Assembly: GCF_014287585.1 (NCBI RefSeq)
Contig: NZ_JACOOJ010000041.1
Location: 1-48,380 of the forward strand
From: Parabacteroides hominis
GTDB lineage: Bacteria > Bacteroidota > Bacteroidia > Bacteroidales > Tannerellaceae
Reading direction: 5' to 3'
DNA: 48,380 nucleotides
Under the pieces are notes generated by a model. It searched no databases, was not told where the DNA came from, and saw only the letters and a program-made list of their open reading frames with translations. Numbering within the stretch: the first letter of the stretch is position 1; every line of letters begins with the position of its first letter. The translations under genes were made by a program, and so were the position numbers. Below, piece after piece: positions 4,306 to 41,769 of this stretch.

Positions 4306-5361
4306 ATGCTGACCGATATCCGCCTGTTAAGCCAGCAATTGGCAAAACCCCGGTTCAAGAGTCCGAAGGAAGTGGTTGCCTGGATGGGAGCTATCCAGGC
4401 ACAGGAGTATGCGATGGCGAAATGGGCGGTCGGAACCCGCTTGAAGTCTTCTTCGTTGCAGGCGGTGGACGATGCGCTTGCAAAGGGGGAAATCCTGCGT
4501 ACCCATATATTACGACCGACCTGGCATTTCATTGCAGCAGAGGATATCCGCTGGATGTTGCAATTGTCGGGAGGCCGTATACGGACGGCTTTCGATTCTT
4601 ATGCAAAAAGCCGGAAGATGGAGATAACCGGAAGTTTCTATGCGAAAGGTTGCAGATTGCTGGAACAATTGTTGGGCGGGAACAAGAGCCTGACAAAACA
4701 GGAGTTGATGGATGAGTTCGGCCGGGCAGGGGTCGAGGCAGACAATCACTTGATACATTATTTTCTGGTCCGTGCCGAAACGGATGGCCTTGTATGCAGC
4801 GGGGTAGATAAAAACAAGAAGCCGACCTATGCTTTGTTGGAAGAACGTGTGCCTCCGGTGAAAGAACTCAACCGCGAAGAGGCGCTCGCCCGGTTGGCTA
4901 CCCTATATTTCCAAAGCCATTCTCCGGCTACATTGCCCGATTTTGTCTGGTGGTCCGGTTTGACGACGACTGAGGCGCGGCAAGCGGTTGCATCGATCGG
5001 AACCGATCTGCTTGCCGAAAAGTTTGATTCGGAAACCTTTTATCTGCATGTCTCCTGTGACTTGAAGGCCCGTTGCCGGAAAGTGTTGCATCTGTTGCCC
5101 TCGTATGATGAATATCTGATCAGTTATAAAGACCGGACGAGCGTTATGCTACGCGAACATCATCCTAAGGCATTCAATACGTACGGCATCTTTTACCCCG
5201 TGATCCTGTATAATGGCCGTATCATCGGCAACTGGAAAAAAGATTCGAAGAAGAAAGCTCCTGTTGTCGAAACTTCTCTGTTCGATGAATCCTTCGATCT
5301 CCCGGAAGATTTGCTGAAAAAGGCAGCCGGTTATTATTGCTCTTTCCACACCAAAAAGTAG
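4306..5361 (+). CDS. Winged-helix DNA-binding domain protein (HTH_42 / AlkZ-like)
   Basis: 351 aa soluble protein of the HTH_42 (PF06224) family, which includes the DNA glycosylases AlkZ and YcaQ and many uncharacterised paralogues. Typical family features are the N-terminal LLSQQLAKPRFKSPKEVVAWMG-like segment, the AIQAQEY box at about residues 28-34, the HILRPTWHFI segment near 66 and the C-terminal LPSYDEYLISYKDR motif near 266-279. No signal peptide or membrane segment is present. Glycosylase activity against alkylated or crosslinked bases is possible but cannot be assigned, because the catalytic QxQ-type motif was not verified. It follows the desulfidase gene by 10 bases and is followed by a hairpin at 5364. 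Confidence 0.75.
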   Translation: MLTDIRLLSQQLAKPRFKSPKEVVAWMGAIQAQEYAMAKWAVGTRLKSSSLQAVDDALAKGEILRTHILRPTWHFIAAEDIRWMLQLSGGRIRTAFDSYAKSRKMEITGSFYAKGCRLLEQLLGGNKSLTKQELMDEFGRAGVEADNHLIHYFLVRAETDGLVCSGVDKNKKPTYALLEERVPPVKELNREEALARLATLYFQSHSPATLPDFVWWSGLTTTEARQAVASIGTDLLAEKFDSETFYLHVSCDLKARCRKVLHLLPSYDEYLISYKDRTSVMLREHHPKAFNTYGIFYPVILYNGRIIGNWKKDSKKKAPVVETSLFDESFDLPEDLLKKAAGYYCSFHTKK

Positions 5362-5416
5362 GGATTCCACACTCGATTGTGGAATTTTTACACACTTTCC
5401 CCAATCCGTTCCACAC
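5344..5416 (+). promoter_or_regulatory. Phased TTCCACAC repeats, candidate upstream activator sites
   Basis: The octamer TTCCACAC occurs at 5344-5351, 5365-5372 and 5409-5416. The first two are 21 bp apart (two helical turns) and the third a further 44 bp on. The middle one forms a perfect inverted repeat with TGTGGAAT at 5378-5385. They lie about 115-190 bp upstream of the predicted start from the sigma-54 promoter at 5505, the usual distance for enhancer-binding proteins. The role is inferred from position and spacing. Confidence 0.45.
5364..5389 (+). terminator. Hairpin with T-run after the winged-helix gene
   Basis: ATTCCACA (5364-5371), loop CTCGAT and TGTGGAAT (5378-5385) form an 8-bp stem followed by TTTTT. 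It starts 3 bases after the stop of the upstream gene. The stem also contains two of the TTCCACAC half-sites, so it may be terminator, operator or both. Confidence 0.6.
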
Positions 5417-5504
5417 CTCCCTGATTTCTTCTGTATTATGTGTGTCGCTTTTATTGGCTTGTATATCAGTATCTTATTTTAAAAAGTATTCCCTTTCTCA
5501 TTTC

Positions 5505-5520
5505 TGGCACGTCCTTTGCA
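5505..5520 (+). promoter_or_regulatory. Sigma-54 (RpoN) -24/-12 promoter
   Basis: TGGCACGTCCTTTGCA is an essentially perfect -24/-12 element: GG at 5506-5507, ten bases, GC at 5518-5519. Predicted +1 is near 5531. No gene starts directly behind it. The next landmark is the terminator at 5605-5641, and the lipoprotein ATG comes only at 5706. Confidence 0.75.
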
Positions 5521-5530
5521 ACTTATTTAT

Positions 5531-5641
5531 CAGAATTAGATATTATCCTTCCCGAGATATTGTTTTCTGATTAGATATTTGATTAGAAAAAGCTTATCGA
5601 TTTTAAATCCGCTTCGCCTGTGAAGGTAAAGCGGATTTTTT
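5531..5641 (+). ncRNA. Candidate sigma-54-dependent small RNA
   Basis: The stretch from the predicted +1 of the sigma-54 promoter to the end of a strong intrinsic terminator is about 110 nt, has no credible open reading frame, and ends in a 10-bp hairpin plus T-run. The body is AU-rich and contains two near-repeats of GATTAGATATT/TGATTAGA (about 5569-5588) that would be single-stranded. The alternative is a leader with an attenuator for the lipoprotein gene at 5706. Expression has not been shown. Confidence 0.45.
5605..5641 (+). terminator. Intrinsic terminator
   Basis: AAATCCGCTT (5605-5614) pairs with AAGCGGATTT (5629-5638) around a 14-base loop that itself can form CCT/AGG, followed by T residues. 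It is a strong Rho-independent terminator reading rightward. Confidence 0.85.
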
Positions 5642-5705: not shown

Positions 5706-6917
5706 ATGAAATCAGAGAAAATCCTGATATCCATCATTCTTTCCATGTTCTTCGCAAACATAGGTTTGGTATCTTGTAGTAAAGAAAATACATTGGAGAT
5801 TGTCAAAAATCCTTTGGAAGAGGAAGTTTATTATATCGTAGGCAAATTGAATCAGGAATATATGCCTGTGGAAGATGTTGCTGTGAGCGCTTCCGGCGTC
5901 ACGGTCAAAACATCGCAAGATGGCATGTATCAATTGCCTGTGAAAAAGAAAGGAGATTATGTCGTATCGTTTACGAAAGACGGATATATACCGCTGACAT
6001 CATCTGTCACGATTCCCGGAAATATGCATACCGGGAGTACTGTCTCCTTGCCTTTACAAATGACTAAGAAAAACGCAACGATTACAATAGACCCATCTAA
6101 AGATACGGTTATTATTTATCCGGGAGCCGATAAACTTACTTCTATAATATTTCCGGCGGGTATAACTAATAAACCGATTGAAGTTTCTGCAACAGAGTTT
6201 ATAAATGGGGCAATGGAAAATGCTAAACGTGCAAGTTTTTCCACCTTTGAATTGGAAATATCTGGGATGGAGGGCACTTTGCCTGTTGAAATAAAAAATC
6301 AGGCGCATCCTCTCATTCGCGTCGGAAATATTGTTCAGTATGCCGAAATAGACGGGCAGTGGACCCTGTTAGGAGATGTTTCCACTTTTGATTGGGGACA
6401 GAATGTTCTTAAGACAACCATACAATCCTCTTATGTGAAACATTCCATAGGCCCTGTATTTGAAATAGTTTCCACCGATACGTCTTTAGAGAGCTTGGGC
6501 GAAGTCACGATCGATAATTTAGGCAATTTATCATCTAAAGAGGTCGAAGTCATGGTCAAACAAAAAATGGGTTGGGACATTACAACGAATATGGATGATT
6601 ATTATTCAATTTACCCAGGGTTGGTTGATGACGACTGCAAATATACGACTGCTACTTTGTACAGGGTCTTGGCTTCCATTAATGGTTCTTTATTCGGAAT
6701 AGATGAAACGGATCTCTCATTAGGCGTAGCCAAAGTGAGCGGAGATACCAAAATGGAAGTTAAATGTTTTGCACGTGTGGAAGATATAACGTTTAGATTC
6801 ATATTATTCTTTCAAGGGATATGGGTTACTCATCATATCAGTATAAAAAAATATAGTGGCGTCAATGTTGAGTTTGATTACCAGTATGGCCCTAACCACA
6901 CTGGTAATCAAGAATAG
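5706..6917 (+). CDS. Lipoprotein with a carboxypeptidase-regulatory-like domain
   Basis: 403 aa. A signal peptide (residues 1-24) ends in a lipobox-like LVSC, then SKEN, so the protein is probably lipidated and outer-membrane or periplasmic. Residues about 45-115 resemble the carboxypeptidase-regulatory (CarboxypepD_reg) beta-sandwich: VEDVAVSASGVTVKTSQDG, then a YQLPV strand and DYVVSFTKDGYIP. The rest (about 120-400) is beta-rich and not recognised. It is AT-richer than its neighbours, which suggests transfer or fast change. A weak AATCTTTG -7-like box lies at 5667-5674. The last codons contain a 12-bp inverted repeat that can end transcription. Function is unknown; surface binding or scaffold roles are common for such proteins. 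Confidence 0.7.
   Translation: MKSEKILISIILSMFFANIGLVSCSKENTLEIVKNPLEEEVYYIVGKLNQEYMPVEDVAVSASGVTVKTSQDGMYQLPVKKKGDYVVSFTKDGYIPLTSSVTIPGNMHTGSTVSLPLQMTKKNATITIDPSKDTVIIYPGADKLTSIIFPAGITNKPIEVSATEFINGAMENAKRASFSTFELEISGMEGTLPVEIKNQAHPLIRVGNIVQYAEIDGQWTLLGDVSTFDWGQNVLKTTIQSSYVKHSIGPVFEIVSTDTSLESLGEVTIDNLGNLSSKEVEVMVKQKMGWDITTNMDDYYSIYPGLVDDDCKYTTATLYRVLASINGSLFGIDETDLSLGVAKVSGDTKMEVKCFARVEDITFRFILFFQGIWVTHHISIKKYSGVNVEFDYQYGPNHTGNQE
6874..6911. terminator. 12-bp inverted repeat inside the 3' end of a coding sequence
   Basis: TTGATTACCAGT (6874-6885) and ACTGGTAATCAA (6900-6911) are exact complements around a 14-base loop. They encode part of the lipoprotein C-terminus and stop a few bases before its TAG. 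Only 7 bases separate this gene from the convergent CorA gene, so the hairpin is the only candidate terminator for both directions. Confidence 0.55.
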
Positions 6918-36131: not shown

Positions 36132-37448
36132 TCAAGGGAATGTCAATACGAATGTCGTCCGTTTGGCTGCCGGCGCACTCTTCAGGGCGATACTGCCTCC
36201 CGAAAGGCGCATGATCTGGCGGGAGATGGAAAGCCCGATACCGCTGCCGCCCTCTTTGGTGGTGAAGAACGGGACGAAAATGTGTTCGGCCTCTTCCTGC
36301 GGGATCACAGGCCCGTTGTTGCTGACCTCGATCAGGACGGCTTCTTCCTCGTTGCAATAGGCATTGACCTCGATCAATCCGTTTTCCTGTTCGCTGCCGA
36401 TCGCTTGCATGGCGTTCTTAAGCAGGTTCAGGACTACTTGCGAGATCAGGTTCTCGTCTGCATAGACGATCAGGTCGGAAGGCTCTACGCTGACAGTGAT
36501 CGTGATGTTGGGGAAATTGGTGTGATGGCGGGCTAACTTCACCATGCGCTCCACGAATTTCTGGACATAGAAGAGCGTAGGTTCCGGTGTCGGGATATGC
36601 GTGAATTTGCGGTAAGACTCAACGAAAGAAATTAAGCTCTTTCCTGTCGTGCTGATTACTTCCAGGCCGTTGCGTATCTCGTCGTCCGCATTCTGATGCA
36701 AGGAGAGAAGCGTGTCGCTGAGGGAAGTGATGGGCGTGACGGAATTCATGATCTCGTGCGTCAGTACGCGCGTCAGGCGTATCCAGGAATCGATTTCCTT
36801 GTCGTCCAACTCGCTGTTGATATCGTTGATAGCCAGGATGCGCACATGTTTCTCCTGCAGCGTCATTTCCGAAACGCGGATCGAAAGGTGCACGTTGCCG
36901 CGTTCGTTGGCAAAGGATATCTGGTGCTTGTCGCCCGGCTGTATGTTTTGTATGATGGTTTTCAGGTTCTCGTCTATGCGGGCAAGCTGGCGCACGTTCG
37001 TGAAAACGGTCAGTCCGAGCAGCCGCAAAGCTTCGTTGTTCGTCTGGTAGATCACGCCGTTGTCATCGAGCACGATGATGCCGGTATTGACGCAGTTCAT
37101 GATCAGCTCGTAGTATTTCTCTTTCTGGACGGCATCCGCCTTGGCCTGGAAAAGAATCTGCGTGATGCGGTTGAGCGATTCGCTGACCAGTTTGTCGTTC
37201 GACGAGCGTCCGCGTGTCGCATACTGGAAAGCATAGTCGCTGTTGTCGATCGCGTCGAACATAAAAGCGACCTTCTGTGCATTTCGCTTATCGGACAACA
37301 GGATAAGCCGGAGGAAAAAGAGCCATGCGGCCAAGATCGGAACAAACCATATCCATTCCTGCCGAAGGGCAAAATAAGTATCGGCTATTGTCAAGAGAAT
37401 GAAAACAGCTATGCGGAGATAAAAATTATGATAGCATCCTTTCAGCAT
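36132..37448 (-). CDS. PAS-containing sensor histidine kinase (NtrY/NtrB-like)
   Basis: 438 aa. Two membrane helices lie in residues 10-50 with almost no periplasmic loop. A PAS-type domain spans about 110-200 (MNCVNTGIIVLDDNGVIYQT). The dimerisation helix carries His231 in RVLTHEIMNSVTPI, the phospho-acceptor. The ATPase domain has the N-box QVVLNLLKNAMQAIG near 325, then VSNNGP and the FFTTKEGGSGIGLSISRQI loop near 390. Lacking a large external sensor, it probably senses an internal or membrane signal. Its ATG shares a base with the stop of the sigma-54 activator gene upstream (37448), so the two are translated together and form a pair. Confidence 0.9.
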   Translation of the reverse strand: MLKGCYHNFYLRIAVFILLTIADTYFALRQEWIWFVPILAAWLFFLRLILLSDKRNAQKVAFMFDAIDNSDYAFQYATRGRSSNDKLVSESLNRITQILFQAKADAVQKEKYYELIMNCVNTGIIVLDDNGVIYQTNNEALRLLGLTVFTNVRQLARIDENLKTIIQNIQPGDKHQISFANERGNVHLSIRVSEMTLQEKHVRILAINDINSELDDKEIDSWIRLTRVLTHEIMNSVTPITSLSDTLLSLHQNADDEIRNGLEVISTTGKSLISFVESYRKFTHIPTPEPTLFYVQKFVERMVKLARHHTNFPNITITVSVEPSDLIVYADENLISQVVLNLLKNAMQAIGSEQENGLIEVNAYCNEEEAVLIEVSNNGPVIPQEEAEHIFVPFFTTKEGGSGIGLSISRQIMRLSGGSIALKSAPAAKRTTFVLTFP

Positions 37449-38803
37449 TACAGTTCGTATCGTTTGATCTTATTATAGAGCGTCTGGCGGGAAATCCCCA
37501 ACTGGCTTGCGACGAGCGACAAATTGCCGCTGTACTTGTCCATTGCATTTTTAATCATATTATACTCCATCTCTTCCAGCGTTGTCGCTTCTTTTACAGC
37601 CGCTTCCTTTTTAGTCCGTGGAAAATCGAAATCGTTGCCGTCCAACACATTCTCTTCGGCAATGATCACGGCTTTCTCGATCGTGTGTTCAAGCTCCCGG
37701 ATATTTCCGAACCAGGGTTGCGCTTTCAGTTTCTCTTTGGCGTCCGGACTGAGGCGCATGGCGGCTTTCCCGTAGATATTGGCATATTTGGAAAGGAATA
37801 TTTCGGTAAGGGGAACAATGTCTTCCGGCCGTTCCCTGAGAGGCGGTATTTCCACATGGATCGTGTTGATACGGTAGAGCAGGTCCTCGCGGAAATCCCC
37901 TTTCTGTACCATTTCCTGCAGATCACGGTTGGTTGCACAAATCAGGCGGATGTTGACCGGGATAGGCGTATTGCTTCCCACACGGACAATGCTGCGGCGT
38001 TGCAGGACAGTCAGCAGTTTAGCCTGCAAATGATAAGAAAGGTTCCCGATCTCGTCAAGGAACAGCGTGCCGTTGTCGGCGACCTCGAATTTTCCCGGAC
38101 GGTCTGCCCGCGCATCGGTAAATGCGCCTTTGACGTGTCCGAACAGCTCGCTTTCGAAAAGTGTTTCCGTGATGGCTCCCATATCGACCGGGACCAATGT
38201 TTCCTTCTTCCGGTTGGAAAGCATATGGATCTCGCGGGCGAGCATCTCCTTGCCGGTCCCGTTCTCGCCGGTCACCAAAATGTTGGCGTCCGTCCGGGCG
38301 ACTTTTTCGATCAGGGAACGGAGTTGCTGCATGGCGTTGCTTTCGCCCCAGAACATTCCGCTCTCTTTGGAAACGACGAGCTTATTGTCTGCGAGCGCAA
38401 TGCCTTTGCGGTTTGCCGTCCGGATATTATAGGCCGTTTTCAATGTTTCCAGCAGCTTGGCGTTATCCCAGGGCTTGACCACGAAATCGGTCGCTCCTTC
38501 CTTGATGCCCCGCACGGCAAGGTCGATATCCGCGTAGGCCGTGAAAAGAACGACCTGTATCGAAGCATCTTCCTTCTTTATTTCCGAAAGCCAGAACAGC
38601 CCTTCGTTGCCGGTATTGATACCGGCACTGAAATTCATGTCCAATAGAACCACATCTATGTTTTCGTCGTGCAGAGTGGCTTTTATTTTATTAGGAGTAG
38701 AGATGGTAATCACCTTCTCGAAGCAAGTGCCTAACAGCATCTGTACGGCGGTGAGGATTCCTTTGTTATCGTCTACAATTAGTATTGTGCCTTGTTTTGT
38801 CAT
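37448..38803 (-). CDS. NtrC-family sigma-54-dependent response regulator
   Basis: 451 aa. The receiver domain has the acidic pair Asp11-Asp12, phospho-acceptor Asp55 (VVLLDMNF), Thr88 and Lys110. The AAA+ sigma-54 activator domain has Walker A GENGTGKE (179-186), the sigma-54 contact loop GAFTDA (226-231, where GAFTGA is the classical form), and Walker B TLFLDEIGN (246-254). The C-terminal Fis-type helix-turn-helix is LVASQLGISRQTLYNKIKRY. The ATG at 38803 is chosen since the receiver starts directly after it. It probably activates the divergent tolC-hlyD promoter at 39092 through the sites at 38999-39036. It is followed, with overlapping stop and start, by its kinase gene. Confidence 0.93.
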   Translation of the reverse strand: MTKQGTILIVDDNKGILTAVQMLLGTCFEKVITISTPNKIKATLHDENIDVVLLDMNFSAGINTGNEGLFWLSEIKKEDASIQVVLFTAYADIDLAVRGIKEGATDFVVKPWDNAKLLETLKTAYNIRTANRKGIALADNKLVVSKESGMFWGESNAMQQLRSLIEKVARTDANILVTGENGTGKEMLAREIHMLSNRKKETLVPVDMGAITETLFESELFGHVKGAFTDARADRPGKFEVADNGTLFLDEIGNLSYHLQAKLLTVLQRRSIVRVGSNTPIPVNIRLICATNRDLQEMVQKGDFREDLLYRINTIHVEIPPLRERPEDIVPLTEIFLSKYANIYGKAAMRLSPDAKEKLKAQPWFGNIRELEHTIEKAVIIAEENVLDGNDFDFPRTKKEAAVKEATTLEEMEYNMIKNAMDKYSGNLSLVASQLGISRQTLYNKIKRYEL

Positions 38804-38900
38804 GTATGGTTTATACGTTTTTAATAAATACCTATAGCATAGTCGTGATTTGTTTCTCCAATGCCTGCTTGATAAAAGCATTTATGTATTTAAGTTTCTG

Positions 38901-39091: not shown

Positions 39092-39107
39092 TGGCACGTT
39101 CTTTGCT
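39092..39107 (+). promoter_or_regulatory. Sigma-54 -24/-12 promoter for tolC-hlyD
   Basis: TGGCACGTTCTTTGCT has GG at 39093-39094, ten bases and GC at 39105-39106, a near-perfect RpoN promoter. Predicted +1 is near 39118, 17 bases before the tolC-like ATG. Confidence 0.85.
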
Positions 39108-39134: not shown

Positions 39135-40469
39135 ATGAAAAAGATCATATTTACAACAGTACTTTCTTTTACCTTAGCTGCCTCGGTAATGGCGCAGGAT
39201 AAAATATGGAGTTTGGACGAGTGTATGCGCTATGCGGTGGAGAATAGCCCGAAGGTGAAGCAGCAGCTTTATGCCAATAATACGTATAAAGCCGAACAGC
39301 AGTCTGCCATAGCCTCTTTTTTACCCTCTATCAGTACGAATGTGGATGCTCAGTATCGGTTTGGACGTTCTGTGGACCCGGAAACGAATACCTATGTAAA
39401 CACTTCCACCTTTAATAACGGTTATGGGGCCTATGCTTCCTTGCCGCTTTTCAGAGGCGGACAGCTGATTAACCAATGGCGGCTGGCAAATGTGAACCGC
39501 CACATGGGCCGAAATGATTTGCAGAAGCAGAAAGATGATTTGGCAATCAGCATTATGGATGCATTTATTACGGTTGTCTATTATCAAGGGTTGGTAAAAA
39601 TGTGTTCCGATAAGTTAGAGGATAGCCAGCGTCTTTTATACAAGACACGTCGCCAGGAAGAGTTAGGTCTGAAAGGAAAAGCAGATGTCGCCCAGATTGA
39701 ATCGCAGGTCGCCGGCGATGATTATAATCTGACGCATCAGCAGAACCTTTATAATACGGCGATGATGACCTTAAAGAATGCGATGAACTATCCTTCGGAT
39801 TTGACGCTCGATGTCGATACGGTCGTTCCTCAGGTGCAGGATATATTGGCCGAGGAATCTGTCAGTGCCATCCAGGATTATGCTATGGCAAACAATCCGA
39901 CCGCTCTGCAAGCAGAGTTCCAGTTGAAGACCAGCCGGATGAATTATCTGATAACAAAAGGCAAATTACTTCCGAGCCTTTCCGTGGAAGCCGGCATCAC
40001 GACCAGTTATTTTGAAAACCTGAAATCGGAAAACGCTCCTACGGCTTTTAAAAACCAGTTTAAGAATAACCGTGGAGAATATATTTATTTTAGTTTTAGT
40101 TTTCCTTTGTTTGACGGCCTCTCACGGATTACCAGTCTGCGCCGTGCCCGCAATAATGTCCGGATCGCTTATGAAAAGCAAACCGAAACACTTCGCCAGT
40201 TGCAGAAAGATGTAGAGCAGGCCGTTCTCGATAGAGAAGGCTATGCTAAAGAAACGATCCAGATGGAGAAAAAAGTAAAAGCCGATGCTTTGGCCTATCA
40301 GGTTACTCTGCGTAAATTTGAGGAAGGATTGATGAGCCCGCTTGATGTACAGACAAACGCGACGACTTTGTTGAACTCAAAGGCTGATCTTCTACAGAGA
40401 CGTTTGCTGTATATGATGAAATGCCGTCAGGTTGATTATTATAAAGGGCAACCGTTGATTGGGAATTAA
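39135..40469 (+). CDS. TolC-family outer-membrane efflux protein
   Basis: 444 aa. A signal peptide ends near VMAQ (residue 21). The mature protein has the two outer-membrane-factor repeats, each with long helices and short beta segments: DECMRYAVENSPKVKQQLYA near 30 and QDYAMANNPTALQAEFQLKT near 250. It would form a trimeric channel through the outer membrane and periplasm. The length fits Bacteroidetes TolC proteins. It is transcribed from the sigma-54 promoter 17 bases upstream of the ATG and is followed by the adaptor gene after 49 bases that hold an AT-rich repeat. The substrate is unknown. Confidence 0.92.
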   Translation: MKKIIFTTVLSFTLAASVMAQDKIWSLDECMRYAVENSPKVKQQLYANNTYKAEQQSAIASFLPSISTNVDAQYRFGRSVDPETNTYVNTSTFNNGYGAYASLPLFRGGQLINQWRLANVNRHMGRNDLQKQKDDLAISIMDAFITVVYYQGLVKMCSDKLEDSQRLLYKTRRQEELGLKGKADVAQIESQVAGDDYNLTHQQNLYNTAMMTLKNAMNYPSDLTLDVDTVVPQVQDILAEESVSAIQDYAMANNPTALQAEFQLKTSRMNYLITKGKLLPSLSVEAGITTSYFENLKSENAPTAFKNQFKNNRGEYIYFSFSFPLFDGLSRITSLRRARNNVRIAYEKQTETLRQLQKDVEQAVLDREGYAKETIQMEKKVKADALAYQVTLRKFEEGLMSPLDVQTNATTLLNSKADLLQRRLLYMMKCRQVDYYKGQPLIGN

Positions 40470-40501
40470 GAATTAAGAATTAAAAATTAAGAGTTGAAAA
40501 A
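40463..40501 (+). repeat. AT-rich AATTAAGAATTAAG repeat between tolC and hlyD
   Basis: Units of AATTAAG/AATTAAA followed by GAGTTGAAAA begin inside the last codons of the tolC-like gene and fill most of the gap to the adaptor gene. Same family as 2922-2956 but in the other orientation. Confidence 0.65.
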
Positions 40502-40518
40502 TAAAAAAATATACAATC

Positions 40519-41769
40519 ATGGATATACAGTTAGAAAAAAAGAAAGGTCTTCAGAAGAAGCATATTCCTTATGTAGCAGGTGGCGCTTTTTTCCTGGTTT
40601 TGGTAGGATGGATCGTTTTCGGTGATCACGCTTCGACATTGAAAGTGGATGCCCGCGGTGTCAATATAGGGAATGTGACGAAAGAACAGTTTAACGATTT
40701 CGTTCGTGTGAATGGTCAGGTTCAACCTATTACGGTTGTGCAGCTCAGTCCTGAAGAAGGCGGTATCGTACAGGAGAAAGTCGTAGAGGAAGGTGCACAG
40801 GTGAAGAAAGGGGATGTGATCATCCGTCTTTCCAACTCAAACCTCGACCTGCAGATTCTGGACGCCGAAGCCCAGTTGGCGGAAAAGCAGAACTTCCTTC
40901 GTAATACGCAGGTGACGATGGAGCAGGACAAGTTGAACAATCAGTTGGAAAAAGCGCAGTTGGATGTCGATATGACGCGCTACCGCCGCGCTTACAACCA
41001 GCAGAAAAAGTTGTATGAGGAAAACCTGATTGCAAAGGAAGAATTCCTGAAAGCAAAAGAAGATTATGAACTGGCAAGTAAGAAATATGACCTGGTCGTG
41101 GAACGTTTGCGTCAGGATTCGATTTCCCGCACGATCCAGATGGACGAAATGGAAACCAGCTTGTTCAATATGCGTAAAAACATTGCTTTGGTGCATGAAC
41201 GCAAGGAGCATTTGAATGTACGTTCGCAGATCGACGGTGAATTGGGGTTGCTGGATGTCGTGCTGGGACAGAATGTGTCGGCCGGACAGAAGATCGGGCA
41301 GATAAACGACTTGTCGGACTATAAGATCGAAGCTCTTATCGACGAACATTATATCGACCGCGTGAAAAAAGGATTGTCCGCGACATTCGAACGCCAAGGG
41401 GCTGACTTTGAATTGAATGTACGCAAAGTCTATCCGGAAGTACGCGACGGCAAGTTCCGTACGGATTTCGTCTTCACCGGCGAACGTCCGGACAATATCC
41501 GCAGCGGACAGACCTATTACATTAACCTCGAACTCGGACAGCCGACGGAAAGCATCATCATCCCGCGCGGAACCTTCTTCCAGAGCACAGGCGGCAGCTG
41601 GATATTCGTTCTTGACAAAGACGGCAAGAAAGCATATCGTCGCAAGATCAAGATCGGTCGCCAGAACCCGCAATATTACGAAGTGATCGACGGTCTCGAA
41701 GCCGGTGAGAAAGTAATCGTTTCCAGCTATGAGAGCTATAAGGACAACGAGGTGCTGGTATTGGAATAA
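40519..41769 (+). CDS. HlyD/MacA-type periplasmic adaptor (membrane fusion protein)
   Basis: 416 aa. One N-terminal membrane helix (about 18-36) anchors the protein in the inner membrane. A lipoyl/biotinyl-like half (PEEGGIVQEKVVEEGAQVKK near 75-95), a coiled-coil hairpin (about 105-235, rich in Glu, Lys and Gln) and a second lipoyl half with a beta-barrel (VLGQNVSAGQKIGQI near 255; YYINLELGQPTESIIIPRGT near 335) follow. This is the adaptor that links an inner-membrane pump to the TolC channel. No ABC or RND pump gene follows; the transcript ends at the terminator at 41871. The pump must be encoded elsewhere or has been lost here. Confidence 0.9.
   Translation: MDIQLEKKKGLQKKHIPYVAGGAFFLVLVGWIVFGDHASTLKVDARGVNIGNVTKEQFNDFVRVNGQVQPITVVQLSPEEGGIVQEKVVEEGAQVKKGDVIIRLSNSNLDLQILDAEAQLAEKQNFLRNTQVTMEQDKLNNQLEKAQLDVDMTRYRRAYNQQKKLYEENLIAKEEFLKAKEDYELASKKYDLVVERLRQDSISRTIQMDEMETSLFNMRKNIALVHERKEHLNVRSQIDGELGLLDVVLGQNVSAGQKIGQINDLSDYKIEALIDEHYIDRVKKGLSATFERQGADFELNVRKVYPEVRDGKFRTDFVFTGERPDNIRSGQTYYINLELGQPTESIIIPRGTFFQSTGGSWIFVLDKDGKKAYRRKIKIGRQNPQYYEVIDGLEAGEKVIVSSYESYKDNEVLVLE

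Follow-up and report, generated by a model that had tools for sequence, protein, structure and literature searches.

A conserved predicted small RNA gene in Parabacteroides, very probably sigma-54-dependent, with a proposed palindromic upstream enhancer

Background

Small RNAs that depend on sigma-54 are a class known from Proteobacteria. Qrr and CrcZ are free-standing small RNAs that are transcribed with RpoN under a two-component activator; they are proteobacterial, and their sequences and enhancers are unrelated to those described here. Small periplasmic proteins take part in envelope-stress responses, as in the systems of CpxQ and of ZraP-ZraSR. CpxQ is an RNA arm made from the protein's own mRNA, namely from the 3' UTR of cpxP, and the ZraP system has a sigma-54 activator.

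GlmY is another free-standing small RNA that, in the accessible part of its description, is made with RpoN under a two-component activator (PMC4651636); it is proteobacterial, with unrelated sequence and enhancers. In enterobacteria, GlnZ is released by RNase E from the 3' UTR of the glnA mRNA, as stated in the available portion of the report (PMC9731577). GlnZ resembles the RNA described here as the RNA arm of a sigma-54 activator's regulon, located with a terminator in the 3' UTR of a sigma-54-dependent mRNA. However, its sequence, gene and phylum are unrelated, and the present RNA has its own sigma-54-type promoter. GibS of Bacteroides thetaiotaomicron is a free-standing, terminated Bacteroidota small RNA with a single-stranded 5' seed (PMC7366714, in the text at hand, where no mention of RpoN or sigma-54 was found), but the Rfam GibS model scores 17.3 bits here against a cut-off of 115. 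On the protein side, DbfQ of Vibrio cholerae is a small periplasmic PepSY protein that controls the neighbouring histidine kinase and response regulator pair DbfRS, according to the accessible text (PMC12714742). The comparison with DbfQ concerns the protein arm only, and its fold family is Pfam PepSY, whereas the proteins described below are only PepSY-like.

A sigma-54- or RpoN-dependent small RNA in Bacteroides, Bacteroidetes or Parabacteroides was not found among the open-licence papers listed. RpoN and sigma-54 were not found in the available text of three B. thetaiotaomicron papers, and the words small RNA, sRNA and PepSY are absent from the accessible part of a computational sigma-54 regulon study that covers Bacteroidota (PMC12316311). 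Among the matches listed for small RNAs arising by ORF loss, none was on point by title and start of abstract. The class is known; within the searched papers, the phylum, the enhancer and the switching between a coding and a non-coding form appear to be new.

Structure and conservation of the RNA

The window is the whole stretch of DNA analysed, 48,380 nucleotides from Parabacteroides hominis; relatives are cited below by genome (G) and locus (L) numbers. Judged from its sequence and its relatives, the conserved block at 5531–5641 (+) appears to be a free-standing small RNA gene that is very probably sigma-54-dependent. A sequence-only reading had proposed about 110 nt without an ORF between a start near 5531 and a strong terminator, and this holds: the block measures 111 nt, its three frames are all interrupted or without a notable start-to-stop ORF, and a hairpin terminator ends at 5641. 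The segment 5530–5645 folds into two hairpins at -31.7 kcal/mol (z = -4.44), and none of 200 shuffled sequences was equally stable. The first hairpin (5563–5590, +) is backed by folding and by the comparison of structures. The second (5605–5638, +) is the terminator, in which 5605–5614 pairs with 5629–5638 ahead of a T run; it is absent from the list produced by a simple terminator scan of the window. Loops of the form CCTGYGAAGG are found in terminators at many places in these genomes, in the window at 5605–5638 and at other loci such as L125 and L127, and they cause the weak hits given by the model of this RNA. No matching family exists in Rfam 15: the window and 12 related loci gave no match at the gathering cut-off and nothing credible at E up to 10, where the best scores were weak and far below the cut-off.

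Identity over 5531–5641 is 111/111 in L055 and L056, 109/111 in L057 and 108/111 in L058. Over the 103 positions of the upstream stretch 5398–5500, it is 71, 81, 68 and 84, respectively. Conservation rises sharply at the position where, going by the promoter, transcription should begin (~5531). Strong homologues (E <= 2.1e-12) were found by DNA search in 10 of 38 genus-group genomes, one in each, and not in the other 28; any match at E <= 1 was found in 33 of the 38, those beyond the ten strong ones being short or weak. The nearest named relative found was P. massiliensis (L001), in which the AlkZ-like neighbour is 92% identical. This AlkZ-like gene, upstream of the RNA, belongs to family PF06224. 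A second form of the RNA, in L061–L064, has 78–80% identity and an extra 5' hairpin.

The consensus structure built from nine distinct rows contains 28 pairs, with 97.2% of cells paired. Both sides have changed in six of the pairs, and four of the six belong to the terminator stem. Of five covariation measures, four were reached by none of 500 shuffles, whereas 191 of the 500 reached the remaining one, further pair types. In slid controls of the structure, the paired cells fell to 33–56%.

The neighbourhood of the RNA bears on two other explanations. The lipoprotein gene at 5706–6917 lies on the same strand, 65 nt after the terminator, and in L057 the sequence after the RNA resembles that of the window by eye, so that the block could be a leader or attenuator of this gene that is read through under some condition. 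This is very improbable. L055, L056 and L058 keep the RNA equally well, but the lipoprotein gene is absent after it and the end of an oppositely directed CorA-like gene (CorA by eye) is found instead; in G013 and G015, a PepSY-like gene precedes the homologous RNA. The leader reading was rejected because the lipoprotein gene is missing behind this RNA in three relatives. The position of the block between convergent transcription units in the same three relatives would also fit a block that functions at the DNA level, or one that merely provides a terminator shared with the CorA-like gene facing it. That is hardly credible, because all 111 nt are conserved beyond the hairpin, the pairs covary, and homologues stand in other contexts. 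The small RNA gene, which is the preferred reading, combines a predicted promoter and terminator of its own with the lack of an ORF and a conserved structure. In L059, the RNA follows an apparent relative (by eye) of the window gene 2244–2909.

The sigma-54-type promoter

Upstream of the block lies TGGCACGTCCTTTGC, a sigma-54-type -24/-12 element of the form TGGCAC-GTCCT-TTGC (+). It had been described as perfect in the sequence-only reading, and it does match the consensus, but the span of 5505–5520 given there was wrong; the element occupies 15 nt, not 16, at 5505–5519. Two consensus TGGCAC-N5-TTGC-type sites exist in the window, the other one at 39092–39106. Sixty Markov simulations gave a mean of 0.32 and a maximum of 3 TGGCAY-N5-TTGC sites against these 2, and P. 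massiliensis has 16 perfect TGGCAC-N5-TTGC sites, compared with 11 for the reversed pattern. Since consensus sites are common by chance, the element alone proves little, and the weight rests on conservation and context.

The element is unchanged in L055, L056 and L059 and carries one to several changes in L057, L058 and L060. Its first T is replaced by C in L057 and L058, L057 additionally ends in TTTGT, and L060 has a poor TGGTTC-N5-TTGT. The loci with the second RNA form, L061–L064, carry their own TGGCAY-N5-TTTGC about 75 nt further upstream. The frequency of chance sites and the degraded elements in L057, L058 and L060 speak for a real small RNA made from an ordinary (sigma-ABfr) promoter, with a coincidental -24/-12 match. 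Such a coincidence is improbable: the sigma-54-type element of the distant copies lies elsewhere, with the palindrome at an equal distance from it, and the combined pattern of enhancer and -24/-12 element is far above control in the family.

The second consensus site, 39092–39106, lies directly before a TolC/HlyD-like efflux operon (39135–41769, +; identity by eye). The operon is divergent from 36132–38881 (-), which holds an NtrC-type activator gene and a kinase-like gene. Orthologues of this activator are 95–97% identical in G013, G015 and G001.

The proposed enhancer palindrome

The conserved enhancer is, from the comparison of relatives, the outward palindrome TGTGGAA-N3-TTCCACA. In the window it reads TGTGGAA-TTT-TTACACA at 5378–5394, a probable activator site with 13 of 14 matches (none of 100 shuffles was as good) whose centre lies 118 bp from the -24 element. 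The sequence-only reading had pointed to other features here, all of which are present. Three TTCCACAC octamers start at 5344, 5365 and 5409, the first two 21 bp apart, and a perfect inward palindrome with 8-bp arms, ATTCCACA-N6-TGTGGAAT, lies at 5364–5385 (its 11-nt arms are 91% complementary). It is the outward palindrome, however, and not this inward one, that is conserved. The copy at 5344–5351 (+) is probably incidental; because it sits in the end of the AlkZ-like gene and varies (TTCCACG in L056, TTCTACG in L057), the 21-bp pair is not a conserved feature and is ruled out as an operator. The half site at 5365–5372 (+), the inward partner of 5378–5384, varies among relatives. The half site at 5409–5416 (+), between palindrome and promoter, is CTCCACAC in L056 and L057.

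For 35 elements, up to 230 bp of upstream sequence were scored for TGTGGAA-N-TTCCACA. L055–L063 all reached 12 or 13 of 14, with the centre 115–129 bp upstream, so that a distant upstream site is present at all ten scored loci of the window RNA, including the window itself; L064 was left unscored as its contig ends. RNA similarity, and not the motif, had decided which of these ten loci were included. The other scored loci were mostly picked up through TTCCACA, so that a bias towards one half exists among them; here at least 12 of 14 was reached by 9/9 ORF-less units and 10/12 protein-type units. Lower scores were found in L202 (10), L240 (11) and the efflux promoter of the window at 39092 (10, not above shuffle level). 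Control by the palindrome is unsupported for the PepSY-like genes of G013, G015 and G002, which score 10, 11 and 9 of 14.

The sequence-only reading was to fall if the promoter lacked conservation in related genomes. Enhancer, sigma-54-type element and RNA recur together in differing neighbourhoods, and the proposal of a sigma-54-driven small RNA gains support from this conservation and recurrence within the genus. Under the explanation favoured here, RNA polymerase with sigma-54 would bind at 5505–5519, an activator would bind at the palindrome about 118 bp upstream, and transcription would start near 5531; this step is a strong inference. Transcription is predicted from the sequence to stop at 5641. 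The product would measure about 111 nt and consist of a 5' part that is unpaired and rich in pyrimidines, followed by two hairpins. It is likely that both hold together, a sigma-54 start near 5531 and a stop at 5641.

Units with the enhancer in other genomes

The pattern TTCCACA-N80-110-TGGCAY-N5-TTGC gave 25 matches in 21 of 123 family genomes, against 4 for the control. Three of them are second matches at one place, which leaves 22 distinct loci. Eleven of these precede ORF-less RNAs, where ORF-less means a terminator-like hairpin (by eye) with no ORF above 40 codons before it. Nine precede small secreted PepSY-like proteins that start 54–77 nt downstream, and the two that lie inside genes look like chance. 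The eleven ORF-less units consist of five homologues of the window RNA (L194, L195, L196, L199 and L205) and six RNAs of other sequence. Further ORF-less units, met otherwise, are L137, L142 and L259. In relatives, a similar switch would drive either a secreted protein or an RNA alone, a sign that the RNA itself may be what the unit is there to make.

Order-wide, the pattern gave 21 matches in 19 of 393 genomes (control 9). Units L240, L241 and L242, picked by eye as the only ones for further examination, look real and precede small secreted proteins of 106, 67 and 111 aa. Seven genomes were searched with a relaxed pattern, which matched 7 times in 4 of them (control 2) and not at all in G001, G002 and G021. 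In G013 and G015 it detected only the RNA, in G005 and G038 PepSY-like genes as well. Pairs of TTCCACAC within 30 bp were matched 28 times, in 16 of the 38 genus genomes, against 4 for the control, and most of the 13 loci read lie inside genes.

L137 (G016) and L142 (G027) each carry six TTCC[AC]CA-type boxes and a non-consensus TGGCAC-GATAT-TCGT. A long ORF-less stretch, nearly identical in both, ends in a terminator-like hairpin. Either a further RNA linked to the enhancer or a variant form of the -12 part may be present here.

Coding and non-coding forms at syntenic loci

Two syntenic positions contain the ORF in only some of the species, and the 3' RNA is kept whether or not the ORF is there. 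At the isomerase-CNNM locus of G013 and G015, the homologous RNA is the 3' untranslated part of the PepSY-like gene (E 4.6e-10 and 2.3e-10). These two homologues lie within a 3' UTR as GlnZ does, whereas the window copy stands alone. G002 and G001 have the PepSY-like gene with a reduced RNA part (by eye). In G038, G014 and G010 the isomerase and CNNM genes flank the RNA with its own sigma-54-type promoter and without the PepSY-like ORF, and the contig of G022 ends before the isomerase. Between CNNM and the RNA, G038 also encodes a 377-aa protein (L118, 5094–6227, +) that, by eye, we take to resemble CARF-domain nucleases.

The MscS locus was matched in 36 of 38 genomes, and 30 loci were read, two of them with under 200 nt downstream. 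Ten loci contain a unit. It includes a 109-aa ORF in G005, G006 and G024 and lacks the ORF in G036, G012, G008, G023, G033, G031 and G037; G012 has one box only, and the element of G033 ends in TTGT. All ten share a 51-nt 3' stretch (51/51 in nine, 50/51 in G037). A midpoint-rooted tree built from two proteins of 36 genomes places the ORF-bearing MscS clade within a group of ORF-less species, inside which the supports are 18, 32 and 61, and ORF gain at this locus is possible. The cysK locus of G003 and G004 carries a short RNA that differs in sequence. In G004 a likely C-terminal remnant of a PepSY-like gene (by eye) follows the RNA, and ORF loss is indicated there.

The 51-nt stretch and a second hairpin lie behind the first terminator in L191, L192, L198, L193, L197, L203 and L204 and in the MscS loci L306–L308 and L312–L318. 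They perhaps represent a further small RNA that has its own promoter.

Because syntenic loci occur both with the ORF and without it, they offer a natural series for studying how an mRNA and a small RNA are converted into each other. A tentative account, given somewhat less than an even chance, is that of one enhancer-controlled unit that exists in Parabacteroides and its kin in interchangeable forms, in which the sigma-54 switch and the RNA would be constant and the small secreted ORF would come and go. The answer to one two-component signal would then consist of the protein arm, the RNA arm or the two together, and the window would hold a stand-alone copy that has kept the enhancer, while the paralogous protein gene of close relatives is without a recognisable one.

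The small secreted PepSY-like protein

In a Pfam scan of nine unit proteins, one (a paralogue in G035) reached the cut-off, for DUF6488, and one touched PF11396 PepSY_like at E 0.02, below its cut-off. The G013 protein was modelled with AlphaFold2 from a single sequence (mean pLDDT 75.7). Its best PDB matches in Foldseek were 3db7 and 3due (probability 1.00, TM 0.49, E 0.0076 and 0.016), which are DUF2874-type periplasmic proteins. A profile comparison placed 3kog first at E 0.0034 and 3db7 at 0.13. The protein is called PepSY-like because of the match of its model to 3db7 and 3due.

The 38 genus genomes contain 25 PepSY-like members, in 16 genomes, and 20 of the 25 have a loose sigma-54-type element 63–88 nt before the start codon. 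The gene was not found in G004, G008, G012, G023, G025, G026, G031, G033, G036 and G037, several of these assemblies being small or broken. An apparent internal stop in the PepSY-like gene of G001 proved to be the normal end of the gene.

The candidate activator and possible targets

It had been noted that no activator gene is adjacent to the RNA. This is correct, although a sigma-54 activator is encoded elsewhere in the window, at 37448–38881. As the only such gene seen in the window, it might regulate the RNA as part of the efflux regulon of 39092, all the more as both elements read TGGCACGTYCTTTGC. This is unlikely: the efflux promoter has no palindrome better than shuffled sequence, and the activators encoded near palindrome units in G032, G113 and G035 are only 35–37% identical to this protein, compared with 50–73% to another Parabacteroides protein.

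G013, G001 and G015 encode 9, 7 and 11 clear sigma-54 activators (E < 1e-60), respectively. A response regulator/activator gene lies 2.4–6.3 kb from the unit in G032, G113, G035 and G123, and the activator cluster of G032 and G113 includes a histidine kinase gene. Among the G013, G001 and G015 activators, those closest to the near-unit proteins of G032, G113 and G035 are L168, L170 and L166, with identities of 71–73% for L218 and about 50% for L214 and L216. The near-unit gene of G123 is the best match in that genome, at 55%. An L168-type protein is encoded in 70 of 123 genomes at E <= 1e-105, namely in 18 of 19 genomes with a genuine unit (G026 is without it) against 52 of 104 others (Fisher p = 2.3e-4, kinship ignored). 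Twenty regions were fetched around L168-type genes, and a unit was found only at L259, so activator and unit are as a rule apart. The activator of the RNA may be an orthologue of L168 1087–2451, a response regulator/AAA/Fis-HTH protein; the chances of this are about even. Should the proposal of an enhancer-controlled small RNA as a whole hold, this gut genus would have an RNA regulator under signal control, for which the enhancer is defined and the activator predicted.

By analogy with known small RNAs, the 5' part may pair with target mRNAs, a step for and against which the balance is roughly equal. The RNA would then serve a two-component response as its non-coding arm, the PepSY-like secreted protein being the protein arm of that response in related species. 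Duplex energies of the 5' part against 114 start regions, taken from the window and some G013 loci and including many spurious ORFs, gave no outlier (mean -12.4, sd 3.5). The values were -18.7 for gene 2244–2909, -19.7 for its G013 counterpart, -18.1 for the candidate activator and -8.7 for the PepSY-like gene.
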